In this document: in pieces, positions 12,542 to 22,383 of the stretch
How positions within the stretch are numbered: the stretch's first letter is position 1
How the letters are laid out: every line of letters starts with the position of its first letter
IMG/VR virus record: IMGVR_UViG_3300044822_000103
Coordinates: 1 to 44,335 of that record
Length of the DNA: 44,335 bases
Source of the DNA: a virus
Direction: 5' to 3' (one strand)
Made by a program: the position numbers and the translations under genes
Notes under the pieces: model-generated
What the model was told of the DNA's origin: nothing
The model's input: the letters and a program-made list of their open reading frames with translations, nothing else
The model's database searches: none

Positions 12542-14044
12542 TCAACCCGGTGCAATGTTCGTGATCATGCCGATGCCGAACGGGGCATACACCGCGAGCA
12601 CTTCCTCGCAATACACACCGAACTCACGCGCCCGCGTTCGCAGCGGCCACTGCAGCTGGTAGTAGTCCTGGCGGAGTTTGACTTCCGCCGTGTTCGGCAC
12701 GTTGTTCGACTTGTACTGCGCGGGGAGATCTTCGCAATACGCGATGATCGTGCCTGCGGGAACATTCGGGTGAATCAGGATCGGAATCTTGATCCCACCG
12801 CCCATGGCGAACGGGTTGAAGTAGAACGCGACGTTCCCACCCGCCACCAGCTGGTAGGGGTTCATCTGCGGATCATCGCCGGTCACTTTGACCTGGAGGA
12901 GCGGTGCGCCCGACGTTCCGGTGAGCACGCGCGAGGTGATGTCCTTCAGCTGCTGGGCATTGACATAAATGACCGACGGGGAGACCTGGTACTGGTTCCA
13001 CATGTTCAAGAGCAGCGCGTCAATCTCATTGACCGTGCCCTTGCCCGAGGACGTCAGGACCGTGCCGGTTCCGGCAACGCCTGTCGCCAGACTCGTCACC
13101 GAGGCACCATATGCGCCCGCCTTGAAGGCGGTCGTGATCAGGCCGTCATAGGCCAGGGTGCTGTTCTGCGAGGCATCGATCGTGATGGCCGTGGCAGCTT
13201 GAGTGCCCGTCGCCAACGGAGTGGCAAACACCGCCGAGTTGATCCCGGTAATCGACTGCAGGATCTCGTTCCCAACCGTACCCACGAACCAGGCATAAGC
13301 CACTGCGCCGGTGACCAAAGCGGTCGATGCGGAGAGGACTTGTCCCAACGTGATCGCTTGGGTGGCATTCGCGCTCTTGTTCGACGATCCGCCATTCAGC
13401 ACGTACGTTTTACCGTCGTTGCCGGTGATGGTCTTCGAGGTCGCAACACCCGTCGAGACGGATGAGTTCTTGACGCCTTCCAAGGTCAATCCCACCACGA
13501 TGACCGAGTAGGTTGCCGCGGGGAGGGTGGCACCTGCACCGGAAGCGGACAGCGCCGGCGTTCCCGCCGTACCCAATGCCAAGGAGGCATTGCCGCCCAA
13601 AATCGCGAGTTCTTCCTTCAGCATCATCTTCTGCAACACGCGCATCGTCTCGGTCGCGAGGATGTCTTCGAACGTATCGGCGGCGTTGATCGCCTCGAAA
13701 GTCACCGAGTCCTCTTCACCCAAGGTGACGTATGACGCGGCTTTCGTCGCGGTCGTCAATTGGATGCTGGCGGTGCGTTGACCCTCAGCAACCCAGCCCA
13801 TGGCATCGAAGCCCGAACCCAAAATCGCCTGCACGACGCGCCAGTTGGTGGCGACGCCCTTGCCGCCGCCCTTGCGGGGCATCCGGTTACGGATCGGGGT
13901 GTTGACGGGATAGAGGTTCTTCGCCGGGGCTTGTAAGTCGAATGCGACGAGGCCGGTGGCGGTGCTGACTTGCTTGGCGATGGTGTCATCGCTCTTGACC
14001 AAGGCAGCTTTCATCAAATCGAGGGTCTTTTGAGTATCGCTCAT
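12542..14044 (-). CDS. Major capsid protein (HK97-fold)
   Basis: 500 aa. The N-terminus (MSDTQKTLDLMKAALVKSDD) is helical. The core carries AEGQRTASIQLTTATKAASY and LMLKEELAILGGN-like E-loop and spine features. The middle (about 165-310) is rich in Ala, Ser, Thr and Gly, an apparent inserted surface domain with VGLTLEGVKNSSVSTGVATS. The C-terminus returns to conserved sequence (PNTAEVKLRQDYYQLQWPLR). The position after a protease-scaffold gene supports the call. The start is ATG at 14044, with GGAG about 12 bases upstream. Terminators bracket it on both sides. Confidence 0.9.
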   Translation of the reverse strand: MSDTQKTLDLMKAALVKSDDTIAKQVSTATGLVAFDLQAPAKNLYPVNTPIRNRMPRKGGGKGVATNWRVVQAILGSGFDAMGWVAEGQRTASIQLTTATKAASYVTLGEEDSVTFEAINAADTFEDILATETMRVLQKMMLKEELAILGGNASLALGTAGTPALSASGAGATLPAATYSVIVVGLTLEGVKNSSVSTGVATSKTITGNDGKTYVLNGGSSNKSANATQAITLGQVLSASTALVTGAVAYAWFVGTVGNEILQSITGINSAVFATPLATGTQAATAITIDASQNSTLAYDGLITTAFKAGAYGASVTSLATGVAGTGTVLTSSGKGTVNEIDALLLNMWNQYQVSPSVIYVNAQQLKDITSRVLTGTSGAPLLQVKVTGDDPQMNPYQLVAGGNVAFYFNPFAMGGGIKIPILIHPNVPAGTIIAYCEDLPAQYKSNNVPNTAEVKLRQDYYQLQWPLRTRAREFGVYCEEVLAVYAPFGIGMITNIAPG

Positions 14045-14058
14045 TGAAATAATGCTCC

Positions 14059-14083
14059 AAAAAAAAGCCCGCTATTTGCGGGC
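14059..14083 (-). terminator. Intrinsic terminator-like hairpin upstream of capsid gene
   Basis: Minus-strand stem GCCCGC/GCGGGC with a 5-base loop, followed by eight T. It lies between the protease gene stop and the capsid start, in the direction of transcription. Read-through, antitermination or a capsid-proximal promoter would be needed; alternatively it stabilises a processed capsid mRNA. Confidence 0.75.
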
Positions 14084-14119: not shown

Positions 14120-15280
14120 TTAGCCGACGATTCGGCCGCCAGTTCGGAAAGCCTTTTTGATGCCATCGAGCGCACGCATTTCGGGCGTTGCGTCTTTGGG
14201 TAATTCTGAATCTTGAATCGGGGTCTCGACGTCATCGCCCTTGGCAATGGCTTTCAAGAGCGCTTTGCCGGGCATCGGCTGCGCCTCGAGGATCTCCAGG
14301 CGTGCAGAGAGTTTGGTGATCAGGTCGTCGCGCTTCGCGAGCTCGGCTTTGACCAAGTCCGCGGCGGCGACTTTCGCAAGCTCGGTTTTTGCGAGCTCGG
14401 CTTTATCCAACGCTTCCGCAGCGCTCGGTCCCATGGGGCACGGGCCAGGGCCTTGTACGCCTGCGATACCGGCAGGTCCGACTTTCGTCGCCTCGACCTT
14501 GGCTAGTTCCACCGCTGCAGCTTTCGCCGCATCGTCGGCCGGCGCGTCTGCCGGCTCATCCGCATCTTGATAATTGAGGGCGCTCATTTTGTCGCACACC
14601 GACTGGGCGGTGGCGTGGACGTCGGCGAGGGCCGCTTGGGTCTTCGCGGAGAACTGCTTGCCGGCTTTGGCGACGGCTTCCACTGCGGGAACCACTTCTG
14701 CGGCAGGCTCGACTTTGGGCTCAACCTTGACCAGCGAGTCCTTCGCGGCCTTCAAAATCTGCGAGGGCGTGATGGTCTTGCTGTTCAGCATCTCGGCAAT
14801 GTCGGCAATGGCGGATTTCTCGAGGTCTGCAACCTCGTCCGTGCTCTTTTCCGCCTTGAACATCGTGAACACCGCATCCGGGTTTGCCGGGCGGTCGACC
14901 AGGGACACCTCGACCAGCTTGAGGCCCGTGATGATGGTCTTGTTCACAGGATCCCGCGAGGTGGCCTTGCCGCCGATCGAGAAGCCCTTGTAGACGCCGT
15001 GCGAGATCTTCTTGACCGCAATCGGATCAATGATGTGCGCGCCGAACGTCGTCTTGCCCACTTCATCGACCGCAATCTCGATGGCCGTTCCTGCAGCGGA
15101 ACTTCCGTGCATTTCGCGGACCGCGCCGAACTTCATATAGTCCGGAATCGCGGCTTTCATCGCATCCGGGGTGATGGTCTCGCCGTCGGAGTCTTTGGCA
15201 TCCGATGAGGCAAAGCCCCACACTTTTAACGTGCCATCGTCCTGCGGTTCGGTCTTCGAGATATCGGCGTAAAGTTTCAT
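14120..15280 (-). CDS. Prohead serine protease fused to scaffold-like domain
   Basis: 386 aa. The N-terminal ~150 residues resemble the XkdF/prohead protease group: VWGFASSDAKDSDGETITPD, then AVREMHGSSAAGTA with a candidate catalytic His, YKGFSIGGKA with a candidate Ser, and LVEVSLVDRPANPDA. The remainder is a long Ala/Lys/Glu-rich helical region (KAELAKTELAKVAAADLVKA), like a capsid scaffold that the protease would digest. It lies directly before the capsid gene, so the fusion can assemble and mature procapsids. Catalytic assignments are by pattern. Confidence 0.85.
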   Translation of the reverse strand: MKLYADISKTEPQDDGTLKVWGFASSDAKDSDGETITPDAMKAAIPDYMKFGAVREMHGSSAAGTAIEIAVDEVGKTTFGAHIIDPIAVKKISHGVYKGFSIGGKATSRDPVNKTIITGLKLVEVSLVDRPANPDAVFTMFKAEKSTDEVADLEKSAIADIAEMLNSKTITPSQILKAAKDSLVKVEPKVEPAAEVVPAVEAVAKAGKQFSAKTQAALADVHATAQSVCDKMSALNYQDADEPADAPADDAAKAAAVELAKVEATKVGPAGIAGVQGPGPCPMGPSAAEALDKAELAKTELAKVAAADLVKAELAKRDDLITKLSARLEILEAQPMPGKALLKAIAKGDDVETPIQDSELPKDATPEMRALDGIKKAFRTGGRIVG

Positions 15281-15299: not shown

Positions 15300-16064
15300 T
15301 CAATCGTCGCCTGAGATGTCGCTCAGTACGGGTAATACATCGCACCGGCAATTCGGGTGCGCCGGCGGATCGCCGACATCGGGAAAATCATCATCCAAGT
15401 CGACTTCCATCCCATTGAGCGCCTCGCACTCATCGCAACATCCTTCACCGGTGATCCAACGCTTGGAAGCCACCTGGCCTGACACACGGTAGGCTTCAAG
15501 GTTGCCGCCAATATCGGCTTTAGCGGTTTCGGTTCGGGCGATCGTTTCTGCTCGAGCATCCGAGAACGCGTACATCTCGGAGAGGTTGTCGGCGAGCTCG
15601 TCATTGCTCATGCCGGTCTCGATCGCATCGGCAATATCGTCTTTCACCATGTCGCGCGTGGTATCACTGATGACCCACTCGGCGTTCGGATTCGGCACCC
15701 TCTCGCCGTCTTTCATCTTCATGCCGATCATTTCGGCGGCCCGGTCGTTCGCGTAATCGAGTGCGTACTGATTCAGCTGGTCGGTGATCGACTCATCGGC
15801 CACGAAGCCGATCTGAGCGAGAGCTTTTGCAGCGCCCTCGTTCGTGATGCGCTCGAGCAGCGCGCTCGACTCATCGGCCAGGAGCCCCAACTTGCCTTGA
15901 GCGATCTCGCCCAGGACCTCATCAATGATCGCCTGATCGTCCTTGCGCAGCGTCTTCAGGCGCTTGCCGATGGCGGTCTGCCAGCTCGAGAACTGCTTTT
16001 TCAGTAGCGATGCAAACTGGTCTCGGCTCTTGTCCGTGTAGCTGCGATCAAGGGCGCGGATCTG
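15300..16064 (-). CDS. MuF-like minor head protein, probably made as portal fusion
   Basis: The frame encodes about 254 aa from the slippery run at 16064-16072 to TGA at 15300. The C-terminal part has the MuF signature: ARTETAKADIGGNLEAYR, GEGCCDECEALNG, PPAHPNCRCDVLPV. The homologous-looking N-terminal part (RALDRSYTDKSRDQFASLL) has no ATG/GTG/TTG; the first candidate is a TTG at 15890 without a ribosome-binding site. The frame is -1 relative to the portal and joins it at AAAAAAAAC. MuF proteins sit inside the capsid near the portal, so a portal fusion would be structurally sensible. Confidence 0.85.
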   Translation of the reverse strand, partial: QIRALDRSYTDKSRDQFASLLKKQFSSWQTAIGKRLKTLRKDDQAIIDEVLGEIAQGKLGLLADESSALLERITNEGAAKALAQIGFVADESITDQLNQYALDYANDRAAEMIGMKMKDGERVPNPNAEWVISDTTRDMVKDDIADAIETGMSNDELADNLSEMYAFSDARAETIARTETAKADIGGNLEAYRVSGQVASKRWITGEGCCDECEALNGMEVDLDDDFPDVGDPPAHPNCRCDVLPVLSDISGDD

Positions 16065-17488
16065 TTTTTTTTAGTGACGGCGTTGCGCCCGCCGATGGGT
16101 GCCTTGCCGCTGCCCGCTTTTCCGGGCGGCGCATTGCCACTCGGCGCACCCTTCGGCGGCGGATTGCCCTGTGCATCCAACATCGGCGGCGGCGGCGGAT
16201 TCAGCAATTCTTGCTGTTCCGGCGTTAACGGTTCTCGACCCATGTCTTGCCGAACTTCATCCGGCGTCAACACTTTGCCGGCGAGATAGATTTGGGCCAC
16301 CTGGGCGGCAATGAGGGGATCGTTGTCCGCCTCTTTGACCCAGTCGAAACACAAATCGGGGGCTTGGAAATACCGCTGGATGACATCGGTCATCGTGTCC
16401 TTGACCCAAGCCATCAAGGGAACCAAGCCTTCGTCCTTCGCCGCATCGGCTGACGTATCAGAGGTCGCGCGATTCTGGGTCTTGATGAACGGGGTCGGGG
16501 CGATCGAGAAGGCGAAGCACACGATGCGCGCGAGCCATTCGTCGTACTCGTCCTTCAACTGCCCCGCTTTGGTCTCCAGGATCTTGCCGCCGCCGGGGAT
16601 GAACTTGGCTTTGCGTCTCTGCGCGGTGTTGCCCTCGAGCATCGCGTCGAACCAGTTCTGGATCTGCTTGATCTGATCGGGCTGCCAGGTTTCAGGCACC
16701 TGAATCAGCATGTCGGGGACGTTGCCTTCGGTGTACGCCTGCAGCTGAAAGGTCTGGCGTCTCAGAGCAATGTTCACCGTCATGATGATCTGCTCGACGG
16801 GTGAGTAGCCGAAGATCTTGTGCGTGCGCGGATTCTGCGGCGCGTAGATCAGCTCGTCCCTCGAATAATCGACCGCCGGCATACCCTTGATGATCTGCTG
16901 GTAAGCAGGATCCGGCGGGAGTGGCGTCCGTCCGCTCGAATCAATAACCCGCTTGATGGTGGATCCGTCGACCAGCTCCAAGCCATACAATCCCCCGCCG
17001 CGGTTCATGCGCGGGTACATGGTCGGGGCATCGATGACGAGTAAGTCCTCGAGCAGCATCCGGAGCCAGATGTTCCAGTTGTGTTCCTGGTCGGGCTTTT
17101 TCAAAAACTGTTGGATCGCGAGACAGCGCGCATCCGAGGTGCCCTTCGGGTCCACCGGCGTCACGGTCCAATCTTGGGCGCAGATCTGATCCTTGCGCGT
17201 CTGGATCACGAGTCTGAGGACGTCATACCCATCGGCCAACGCCCGCATCTGCGCAAAGCTCACCGCCTCCGTTGCACGGGGCGTGTACTGGATGTTGGTG
17301 TTGACGTCGAAATCAAATGCCCGACCGACCGCTTGGGTCTGCGCTTGCGGGGCCAATGGTTGACCTGGCCCGAACCAGTCGGAGGGCTGGACACCGGACA
17401 GCGTATAGCGCACGCCCTGCACCAGTCGGGCAATGACGCCCGGCTTGATCGCGGTTTGGGTCGCGTCGGATTTTAAGTTGCCGGCCAT
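16001..17488 (-). CDS. Portal protein
   Basis: 495 aa in the zero frame. Portal features: FAQMRALADGYDVLRLVIQT, then YGLELVDGSTIKRVID, DELIYAPQNPRTHKIFGYSP, and a C-terminal region with a proline-rich stretch (NPPPPPMLDAQGNPPP). It forms the dodecameric DNA gate that TerL docks on. The last 21 residues (from NRSAPLIAATRT) look out of character and lie beyond an A8 C run. At that run a -1 shift would continue into the MuF-like frame. ATG at 17488 overlaps the previous gene. Confidence 0.93.
   Translation of the reverse strand: MAGNLKSDATQTAIKPGVIARLVQGVRYTLSGVQPSDWFGPGQPLAPQAQTQAVGRAFDFDVNTNIQYTPRATEAVSFAQMRALADGYDVLRLVIQTRKDQICAQDWTVTPVDPKGTSDARCLAIQQFLKKPDQEHNWNIWLRMLLEDLLVIDAPTMYPRMNRGGGLYGLELVDGSTIKRVIDSSGRTPLPPDPAYQQIIKGMPAVDYSRDELIYAPQNPRTHKIFGYSPVEQIIMTVNIALRRQTFQLQAYTEGNVPDMLIQVPETWQPDQIKQIQNWFDAMLEGNTAQRRKAKFIPGGGKILETKAGQLKDEYDEWLARIVCFAFSIAPTPFIKTQNRATSDTSADAAKDEGLVPLMAWVKDTMTDVIQRYFQAPDLCFDWVKEADNDPLIAAQVAQIYLAGKVLTPDEVRQDMGREPLTPEQQELLNPPPPPMLDAQGNPPPKGAPSGNAPPGKAGSGKAPIGGRNAVTKKNRSAPLIAATRTRAETSLHRY
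16064..16072 (-). other. Slippery run A8C at portal/MuF junction
   Basis: The coding strand reads ACT AAA AAA AAC AGA in the portal frame. It contains the classic heptamer A-AAA-AAC. Slipping back one base gives AAA AAA CAG and enters the MuF frame, which is closed by TAA just upstream. A homopolymer sequencing error fusing two frames would look the same. Confidence 0.7.
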
Positions 17489-18884: not shown

Positions 18885-20738
18885 TCATCCGATCACCACG
18901 CCGTTCATCTGATTCAAGGTGGGCGCCGTCTGAAAAATGACCGTCACCGCGTTCAACCCGTGGGTCACATCGCAATCGGGTTCGACTCCGGTTGCGGCGT
19001 ACCAAGCATCGAACGAGTAAAAGAGTGAATTGATGTTGTGGGTCAGCGTGAACGTCGTCGTCACCCCGTCCCCGAAGATGAAGGGATACTTCGCCGTGAG
19101 CGCCACGCCGTTCGCGTAGACCGCACCCGCGACGTTGACCGTGCCCGCGCCTTTATCCCCGCCCGTGGGCGAACCGACTTGCACGCCGGTGCCCGAGAAC
19201 TGCGCGCCACCCGCGCTGACCAGGAGCGCCATGCTGCCTGCGCCCGCGCTGTTGGCTGCCACGATGGCGGCATAGAGCGGGTTGGAACTGGTGTTGCTCG
19301 CTTTGAGCGCAATCCCGTTCGAGGTCGCGTCGATCGCGTCCCCGGCTGAATTGATCATGGAGAGCGACGTGCCGTTTATGACGGCGGGCAAATCCGCCGT
19401 GACCAGGGCGCGAAGGGCTGAGACGGCCGTACCGCCGCTGACGGCCGTCGCCAAAACTTGATTCGCGGCGCCTGAAGGTGCTGGACCGGCAGGGCCAGTG
19501 GCGCCTGTCGCACCCGCTGCACCGTTTGTCCCGGCTGCACCTGTGGCACCGGCCGCTCCCGTGGCGCCTGTTGCGCCCGTAGCGCCAGTCGGTATCCCAA
19601 AATTGAATGTCGCCGCCGAGCTGGTGCCTGAGTTGCCTACCGTGGGTGACGCCCCGGCGGCGAGAGGGGTTGCCGTGCCGGCGGCGATGGTGGCCGCGGC
19701 GCCCGCAGGCCCCGTTGCGCCTGTAGAGCCGGTGGCTCCCGCCGCACCATTTGTGCCGTTCGTGCCGGCCGCTCCCGTGGCGCCTGTTGCGCCCGTAGCG
19801 CCAGTCGGTATACCGAAATTGAAGACGGCCGCCGCGGACGTGCCCGAGTTGCCGACGGTCGGCGTGGATCCTGTCGGAAGTGCGCTGGCGGTACCGGCGG
19901 CGATGGTCGCTGCCGCTCCAGCTGCGCCCGTGGCTCCAGCCGCACCCGCGGTCCCGGTTGTCCCGGTCGGTCCTTGCGGACCTGTGGGACCGGTGAGGCC
20001 AATGGGTCCTTGAGGCCCTGTGGCGCCCGCAGCGCCGTTCGTACCCGCGGCGCCGGTGAGGCCGGTAGGTCCTGTCGGACCTGTCGCGCCTGTAGCACCT
20101 GTCGGACCTGCTGGCCCCGTCAATCCGATCGGGCCCTGAGGTCCTGTGGCTCCAGTAGCGCCCGTGGCGCCAGTCAAACCGATGGGCCCGGTGGCTCCAG
20201 CGGGTCCGGTTGCGCCGGTCAGGCCCGTTGGCCCTTGGGGTCCCGCAGCGCCCGTGAGTCCAATAGCACCTTGCGGGCCCGTCGCCCCGGTCAAGCCCGT
20301 GGGTCCCGTCGGTCCCGCCGAACCGGTGAGCCCCGTCGCACCGATCGGCCCCGCAGGTCCTATCGAGCCGGTGAGCCCCGTGGGTCCGGTAGGCCCTTGC
20401 GCGCCGGTCAATCCAATAGCGCCAGAAGTTCCCGTCGGACCGGTCGCACCCGTAGGACCTATCGGTCCCTGCGCCCCTTGCGCTCCGGTGTTGCCCGACA
20501 ATCCCGTGGGACCGATGGGCCCTTGAGGTCCGGTCGCACCCGTGGCACCTTGAGCGCCTGAAGGCCCTTGAGGACCGATCGCGCCCACCCCTGCCGGCCC
20601 TTGAAGTCCGGTCGGGCCTTCAGGACCTTGCGGCCCCTCGAGCCCCGATTGCACGGTGATGGCCACCGCGGGCGGTTGGGTCACAATGACGTTCACCGGC
20701 GGCGGTAGCGCCACCGTGACCGTCACCTCATCGATCAC
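18885..20738 (-). CDS. Collagen-like fiber protein
   Basis: 617 aa. The N-terminus ([19 protein letters not shown]) leads into well over one hundred Gly-X-Y triplets ([13 protein letters not shown] type), which form a collagen triple helix. The triplets are interrupted by repeated ~45-residue modules with TVGNSGTS(A/S)[10 protein letters not shown]. The C-terminal ~150 residues are non-collagenous ([20 protein letters not shown]) and probably the trimeric head. The protein is a virion fiber; whether on head or tail is open because it lies between TerL and portal. Confidence 0.9.
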
Positions 20739-21118
20739 GGCTTGGTGACTTCGCGAAACACCGAAATGACACCCTGGAGCGGGCTCCAGATGATGCCGGT
20801 CTGCGTGTTCTTGTCCTCCATATCCCAGATGTACTGGGAGAGCGGATCCAAGAGCGTGGGTCCGCAGGTCACCAGCGCGGTCAAACTCGCCGCCATGCTC
20901 ATCGCGGTGACACCGCTCGTGGGTACGCTCGAGGCAAAGCTGAAAACGCCCGCCGGCGAGATATCGCCGGGGAGCTTTCGCATCTGTGCCGAGAGCGCAC
21001 TGTATGTCAGGTCGTAGGGTGAGCCATCGGCATTCGTGAACGTCAACGACAAGAGCAGGTCCGCGCCCTGGCGCATGGCGAAGTCGAACTTCGCCCCGAC
21101 ATTCGAAATGCGCGTCAT
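20735..21118 (-). CDS. Hypothetical protein preceding collagen-like fiber
   Basis: 127 aa. Beta-rich, with [20 protein letters not shown] followed by [14 protein letters not shown], a layout seen in small phage proteins next to receptor-binding or head-fiber genes (reminiscent of BppU-type N-terminal domains). It overlaps the collagen-like gene by ATGA and TerL by ATGG-type coupling, so it is probably the fiber's attachment partner. Assignment by context only. Confidence 0.7.
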
Positions 21119-22383
21119 GGTGTCTCTTTGGCTTTCAACGCCGCAAGTTCATCCGTGGCGAAATCCACGAACCCGAAGCCTGAACGGCGAATCAGGGGCG
21201 CGAGTGCATAGCGCACCGCGTCCCAGATGTGATTGTGTTTATCGACGATGTCGGTCAGGACATCTCCGGTCAGCCGATCGGTTTTGAAGCTGTAGAGCTT
21301 CGCTTCCTCGATCGCATGGGCGCAGCGCGTGTGGATGACCACGCACTCAAACTGGCGGATGAACGCGATGCCATCCTCCACACTGCCCGGCCACTTCTCG
21401 GCTGCCGTTATGCGGGGATAGCCGTGGCGCTGCAGATAGCTGATCGTCTCCGGGCGGGAGTTGTCCCCACGGATCACATGGAGCTTTGCCCCGGCGATCT
21501 GGTCAAAGAGCTGCGGCACCGTATCGGTATCGCGGCCGATCGCCCACGCTTCCTGCTCAATGTATAGACAACGTCCATACACCCAGCACTTCACAAGCGT
21601 CGTGGGGTCCTGGCTGAAGCCCCAGTCCGCTCCAAAATAAGGTCCGTCCCAGTTACCCGGTACGAAATCCTCGATCCGGTACTTGCCCTTGAAGATCTGC
21701 GCCGCTGAGTTCGTGCGGAACTTGCCCTCCCAGACGTGCTGGTAGGCTTCCGGATCCACCCGGGCGAGATAGTCTTTCAGCCGGATCAATCGGTCCGAGA
21801 GCCACGGGTTATCGCGCCAGTTGGTCTCGATGATCCGGCTGTTCGGTACCGGATCGATCAGAAAGCGTTTTGACGTCGGGTCCGTGGCCAAGTCCGGGTT
21901 GAACCCGCACCAGATCTCCGACCCCGCCTTTCGAATCGTCGGTTCGACGATTTGCCAGCTGTTCTCGGTAACAGACTCGCCCTCCTCGATCCAGAGGATG
22001 TCGATGCCTTCGGTCGATTTGAACTTCCGCGGCTCGGTTTTGATGCCGGCGAAGAAGAATTCACTGCCGTTACTGGCAGTAATCGAGCGCTTGCCGATGT
22101 GAAAGTACGCATCGAGCCCCAGGCCCTCGATCTGGGCGCGCAAGGTCTGATGCACTGACTCATCGATTGAGGTCTGATACTCACGGGCACAGGCAATGCG
22201 CAGCTTTCGCTTGGCGGCCAGGAGTACTGCTGTTCGGGCAAAGCCCCAGGACTTCAGTCCGCCGCGGCCCCCGTGCATGACTTTGTAGTCAGACGGGATG
22301 TACTGACCTTGGGAATCAAAGAATAGATCACGAACCTTTGCTGCCAGAACTGGGGGTGCCAGAACCGGGTCCGCCATTGCCAA
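21115..22383 (-). CDS. terL: Terminase large subunit
   Basis: 422 aa. N-terminal ATPase: Walker A-like [10 protein letters not shown] (37-46), Walker [11 protein letters not shown] (127-136). C-terminal RNase H-like nuclease: [11 protein letters not shown] with its Asp, [10 protein letters not shown], and [13 protein letters not shown] carrying the last acidic residue. Matches the PBSX/XtmB-type large terminases. It packages DNA through the portal. It overlaps the TerS gene by 56 bp. Confidence 0.95.

Follow-up and report, generated by a model that had tools for sequence, protein, structure and literature searches.

The portal gene of the window, by which we mean the whole 44,335-bp stretch of this IMG/VR virus record, a single metagenomic contig, is very probably decoded in two ways, yielding a 495-aa portal and, via a -1 slip at an A8C run, a 729-aa portal–MuF protein. 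The preliminary description had proposed that portal and MuF are joined by a -1 shift, and this is supported by related portals, which carry MuF either fused or in the -1 frame, by A7–A10 runs at their junctions, and by a (P)IDRxR segment encoded in the -1 frame.

An A8C run inside the overlap of the portal and MuF frames

On the minus strand, the genes follow the order terminase, collagen-like and glycine-rich tail-fibre-like genes, portal, MuF, protease-like gene and probable major capsid gene. The features are as follows.

21115–22383, minus strand: large terminase (PF04466, E 1.4e-36)
16001–17488, minus strand: portal ORF, 495 aa, ATG start, TGA stop (PF04860, E 1.1e-17; phrog_2662, E 6e-82)
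16071–16073, minus strand: TAA closing the -1 frame just upstream of the run
16065–16072, minus strand: A8 run, putative shift site, followed by C (from the sequence)
16064–16070, minus strand: heptamer A_AAA_AAC in the portal frame (from the sequence)
16004–16066, minus strand: last 21 residues of the unshifted portal, in the overlap with the MuF frame
15300–16070, minus strand: open MuF frame (-1), ending in TGA (15300–15302)
16044–16055, minus strand: ALDR, counterpart of the conserved (P)IDRxR, in the -1 frame
15888–15890, minus strand: TTG, the earliest potential start of the MuF frame
15336–15650, minus strand: Phage_Mu_F domain (PF04233, E 1e-18; residues 138–242 of P0001)
14120–15280, minus strand: next gene after MuF, prohead-protease-like (Peptidase_S78; PF04586, E 1.4e-4)
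12542–14044, minus strand: probable major capsid protein, from position only (phrog_13692, function unknown)

The junction reads ...GTC ACT AAA AAA AAC AGA TCC... on the minus strand, and the two frames overlap in the -1 register with the slippery run inside the overlap. Because the TAA at 16071–16073 closes the -1 frame, the MuF frame, open from 16070 to 15300, can be entered only at or after the run. Counting from the run, codon 59 of this frame (the TTG at 15890) is the first ATG, GTG or TTG, and codon 88 is the first ATG or GTG. A -1 shift at A8 would give a portal–MuF fusion computed at exactly 729 aa, and without a shift the portal has 21 further residues, counted from the Asn encoded at the shift site. 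These values bear out the preliminary description, which had given an A8C run read as AAA AAA AAC in the portal frame, a -1 MuF frame with TAA just upstream and no start over about 58 codons, a fused product of about 729 residues and a 21-residue tail on the unfused portal; its identification of the two proteins as portal and MuF-like likewise agrees with the profile matches listed above.

Both halves of the window's locus match phrog_2662, a single profile of natural portal–MuF fusions with 717 positions, and they do so in order, the portal half at positions 24–455 and the MuF half at 491–710. In the -1 frame, the run is followed at once by the segment QIRALDRSYTDK. On the coding strand of this 44-kb record, which has 61% GC, the junction A8 is the single run of at least eight A. 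Elsewhere in the window, an A8 run lies on the plus strand (T8 on the coding strand) at 14059–14066, between the protease-like and probable capsid genes, and a 617-aa collagen-like repeat protein that matches tail-fibre PHROGs is encoded at 18885–20738, between terminase and portal.

MuF is fused or lies in the -1 frame in related portals

Portal searches gave 80 viral and 80 genomic loci, which were added to the first sets, and MuF was sought in the three plus frames with a profile built from the portal–MuF family. By this profile search, a MuF domain lies downstream in 104 of 175 related portals. Natural fusion and separate genes, the two arrangements that the preliminary description had set side by side, both occur: MuF is fused in frame at 69 loci, lies in -1 at 27, and is otherwise separate at 8 (+1 at 6, separate in the same frame at 2). 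Downstream MuF was undetected at the other 71 loci, 11 of them near a contig end, which leaves 60.

The -1 examples come from metagenomic contigs and metagenome-assembled genomes. Five of them (L021, L058, L059, L069 and L112) lack a run and have start codons at or near the portal stop, which makes them ordinary separate genes. In L031, an A_AAA_AAG heptamer lies close to a GGAG, and the remaining -1 loci carry A7–A10 runs, chiefly GAA AAA AAA AAG or CAA AAA AAA AAG. When portals are clustered at 80% identity, a grouping whose counts still contain relatedness, 17 clusters have MuF in -1 with an A7–A10 run in the overlap, and none is clearly +1. Runs of at least eight A are found in 12 clusters with fused junctions and 16 with -1 junctions, and the single +1 entry is L063. 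In this locus, tabulated as +1, an ADP-ribosyltransferase domain is open in -1 directly after an A9 run (L063:4853–5620; PF03496, E 1.8e-16) and the MuF gene comes next in another frame; the slip site may attach cargo other than MuF. Heptamers of the searched types are absent from 20 of the 52 fused clusters, so dual output is not universal.

Several other loci differ in what follows the portal. At L080:1784–2557, the portal continues at its C-terminus into a lysozyme domain of Pesticin type (PF16754, E 1.6e-38). In L129, L169 and L173, MuF was undetected by the profile, yet A8–A10 runs lie near the end of the portal domain and long in-frame extensions follow. In L109, the -1 frame after an A10 run stays open for just 89 codons, and MuF is reached only past another stop; this locus is possibly broken or has a second shift.

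The run and the segment that follows it are conserved

Immediately past the run, the -1 frame codes for the (P)IDRxR segment, and almost all possible starts lie beyond it. Among the relatives, the post-run -1 segments include AIKPIDSDRAS and SLQPIDRSRAA, and the same segment stands in frame in many fused relatives. In L102, L049, L103, L068 and L083, the first possible start lies 33–56 codons past the run, well beyond the segment; L071 is an exception in which a TTG precedes it. A MuF model built from 36 sequences (mean pLDDT 82) places helices at P0001 residues 7–37 and 40–54, before the TTG. Sequence comparison found no PDB relatives of MuF, and a fold search found none with E at or below 0.001. 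Codon-position substitutions before the first start were saturated, which makes them a weak test, and lent no added support.

Long A runs are concentrated at the junctions. Across 95 loci, the coding strand has 27 runs of at least nine A in 23.6 kb of junctions versus 0 in 708 kb elsewhere, and 28 versus 6 runs of at least eight A in the same two partitions. At the junction runs of at least nine A, MuF is in frame or in -1. Additionally, Lys-Lys pairs are coded AAA-AAA in 49% of cases at junctions versus 17% elsewhere (p 6e-11). The pattern A9G-N0-24-IDR[DE]R, searched in 2.9 million viral contigs, gave 36 matches, all adjoining a portal and/or MuF domain: 22 are fused, 8 are in -1, and 6 have one domain detected, most of these near a contig end. 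Since this pattern contains the family's own peptide motif, the matches report an association of run and motif rather than an unbiased count. The pattern is absent from the genomes of L104, L118, L120 and L127, whose sites have A7 or another following segment. L118 and L120 belong to prophages of Limnobacter litoralis (A9) and Trinickia mobilis (A10), and L107 to one of Herbaspirillum (A7). A separate search of 369 genomes of the class of L104's genome yielded L104's own copy and no other. Taken together, a putative -1 recoding site is conserved across the relatives beyond chance.

Two candidate kinds of slip site

Junctions with at least eight A were compared with junctions at other sites, namely A7, A6G, GGGAAAA, GGGAAAG and CCCTTTC. 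Under this split, which was made at A8 after seeing the data and was not preplanned, a Shine–Dalgarno (SD)-like sequence lies 9–23 nt upstream in 2 of 28 clusters with at least eight A versus 16 of 21 other-site clusters (p 7e-7), and the fold of the 60 nt downstream has a mean z of -0.26 versus -1.80 (p 4e-4). We regard the division into long runs and short heptamers as a hypothesis strongly supported by these comparisons. Pooled over all sites, downstream structure was not above controls (p 0.12; p 0.14), and when controls were restricted to other heptamers of the same ORFs the signals were weaker (SD, p 0.065; SD plus structure, p 0.010). Specifically, AGGAGG lies 13 nt before A7 in L036, L041 and L104, with a hairpin as well in L041, and in L030, L043 and L086 GGAGG precedes GGGAAAA, with hairpins of z -3 to -4.5. 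At these sites the unshifted frame runs through into MuF, and a -1 shift would meet a stop some 5–51 codons on and leave a portal without MuF. Where a short heptamer, an SD-like sequence and a hairpin occur together, the sequence features favour ribosomal -1 shifting.

The window site has neither element of a dnaX-type cassette, an SD-like sequence upstream or a stable downstream hairpin; no SD-like sequence precedes it and downstream structure has a z of 0.00 over 100 nt. By these features it belongs with the A8–A10 group that has neither. The portals nearest to that of the window, L101 (A10) and L102 (A9), have the same kind of site and both carry MuF in -1; in the portal tree these two group with the window at modest support (86–88). 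Over a tree of 100 portals, the kind of site changes 35 times versus 58.9 with shuffled labels, indicating that site kinds are clustered on the tree yet change often.

Since the window site has none of the stimulators found at the short-heptamer sites, transcriptional slippage is at least as likely there as a ribosomal -1 shift. From these site features we modestly favour RNA polymerase slippage at the A8–A10 sites, including that of the window. The same two products could instead come from a ribosomal shift at A_AAA_AAC, a rival on the step and not on the outcome, to which we give a little less than an even chance: a canonical heptamer stands in frame, and A_AAA_AAC is the predicted site at the phiCbK tail chaperone genes (PMC3556154), whereas the SD-like sequence and downstream structure are lacking and the closest kin carry A9–A10. 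A recoding review (PMC5009743) documents efficient polymerase slippage at 9 A or T, including the Thermus thermophilus dnaX gene with its run of 9, describes the Escherichia coli dnaX site as A_AAA_AAG with an SD-like stimulator and a hairpin, and reports that E. coli ribosomes are less prone to shift on A_AAA_AAC than on A_AAA_AAG. The window's A8 thus falls short of a homopolymer of at least 9 A or T, the length used here to recognise transcriptional slippage and reached by its kin L101 and L102. Because A8 is shorter than the documented A9 and A_AAA_AAC is the less shift-prone heptamer in E. coli, the rate could be low.

Run length and the remaining alternatives

Run length varies between related lineages. 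Within a related lineage with the same upstream flank, GCTGGCGCGGTTC-A10 places MuF in frame (the L184 type) versus GCTGGCGCGGTTC-A9, which places it in -1 (L189 and L211). More widely, loci with the same pre-run flank have A9 with the segment in -1 (L189, L199, L211 and L215) or A10 with MuF in frame (L183–L185, L188 and L195), and the A9 of the former four is shared in separate samples. As relatives carry A9 or A10 with MuF either fused or in -1, a correction of the run by one base would switch the default form but need not abolish dual output. On this comparison, accurate reads with A7 or A9, which the preliminary description had named as evidence against recoding, are a weaker refuter than assumed.

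This bears on the possibility that the true run is A9, the record holding an assembly or sequencing error and the gene being a plain in-frame portal–MuF fusion. The contig is a single metagenomic one, no second copy of its junction was found, and the family has many in-frame fusions (69 loci). We nevertheless consider such an error improbable, as many unrelated contigs and assemblies show the -1 arrangement, about 16 clusters with at least eight A are in -1 with no clear +1, where random indels should give both, and four loci share their A9 across separate samples; moreover, an A9 fusion would still hold a slippery run.

Long homopolymers are mutable, and the A9 and A10 forms in related lineages with one upstream flank would also suit a contingency tract, in which replication slippage heritably switches the fused MuF on or off (phase variation) with no ratio set within a cell. 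We judge this unlikely: the SD-like sequences and hairpins of the short-heptamer relatives fit translation and not replication slippage, and no length variants turned up when further exact copies of the window junction, allowing 5–13 bases where the run stands, were sought.

Least probable is translation of MuF alone, starting at the TTG (15890) or reinitiating once the portal stop is passed, with the overlap incidental, for although that TTG exists and its product would retain the Mu_F domain, and although MuF is a separate gene starting at or near the portal stop in L058, L065, L069, L076, L094 and L096, all of these relatives are without an A run, and a start at the TTG would lose the conserved segment and the two predicted helices that fused relatives carry.

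Relation to known systems

Within the searchable literature, predicted slippage at a MuF-family gene was found in one paper. In 2014, slippage was predicted at gp4/gp5 of the Brevibacillus (Paenibacillus larvae) phage Emery (KC595516), with products of 58.9 and 82.5 kDa, and the pair was treated as a head-morphogenesis gene, not recognised as portal–MuF (PMC4168068). The record, our L217, names no portal in the gp4/gp5 stretch. The 520-aa ORF has distant similarity to portals (phrog_213, E 0.0045) and, by tblastn, 28% to a phage gene whose annotation reads 'portal protein assembly'; U_UUU_UUA stands just before its stop, and the -1 extension contains a Mu_F domain (E 3e-12). The gp4/gp5 join is probably a portal and a portal–MuF. 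Emery differs from the window in host group and heptamer, and it is a single case of predicted slippage. No description of the portal junction as a family-wide recoding site was found in the searchable literature, and the word portal is absent from the GeneTack survey (PMC3711429) and from the initial 300,000 characters of the review on recoding (PMC5009743).

The same two domains are joined in phrog_2662, in the in-frame portal–MuF fusions of Microbacterium phages (PMC7302621) and in Arthrobacter phage Sonali, with no recoding described. The MuF protein of SPP1, gp7, is bound to the portal and present at 1–2 copies per capsid (PMC5576092), and virions without gp7 are about 25% infectious (PMC5576092, PMC6316719); SPP1 gp6/gp7 resembles the window in placing a MuF protein on the portal, but through separate genes and non-covalently. 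dnaX offers the same two-product logic, and both of its designs appear at the portal–MuF junction: the short-heptamer relatives resemble E. coli dnaX, and the A8–A10 sites, lacking SD-like sequence and hairpin, resemble Thermus dnaX. Unlike dnaX, the portal–MuF product is a virion protein, and its long form may be either the default or the shifted one. The tail assembly chaperones gpG/gpGT reportedly represent a conserved phage -1 shift, according to Xu, Hendrix and Duda in 2004. There too, a -1 shift appends a domain and sets a ratio, but the products are tail chaperones and not part of the portal.

A model for mixed portal subunits

The frames, the run, the conserved segment and their recurrence are read directly from the DNA, and from them we infer slipping, its rate, co-assembly and function. 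Normal decoding would give the 495-aa portal, and a fraction of mRNAs or ribosomes would enter the -1 register at A8C, continue into the MuF frame and give the 729-aa protein. Short and long forms would then co-assemble in the portal ring, and the slip frequency would set the number of MuF domains on the portal, presumably inside the head. That slip frequency sets the ratio of the two portal forms, as the preliminary description had suggested, is plausible; by arithmetic, a shift of about 8–17% in a 12-mer would give one or two MuF domains, and the 1–2 gp7 copies of SPP1 would correspond to a shift of roughly 10%.

We consider it on balance probable that the portal C-terminus is a family-wide device for mixing subunits with and without a cargo domain (MuF, or ADP-ribosyltransferase in L063), in which polymerase slippage and ribosomal shifting have replaced each other repeatedly and either form can be the default frame. 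The usual view of the portal ring is one of 12 identical subunits, and separate genes alone leave one or two MuF copies per head unexplained; slipping within the portal gene would fix the MuF count covalently. A single junction at which transcriptional slippage and ribosomal shifting apparently interchange would allow the two to be compared across hosts. Because gene callers split or mis-start these genes, the annotation of portal and MuF in the family would change.
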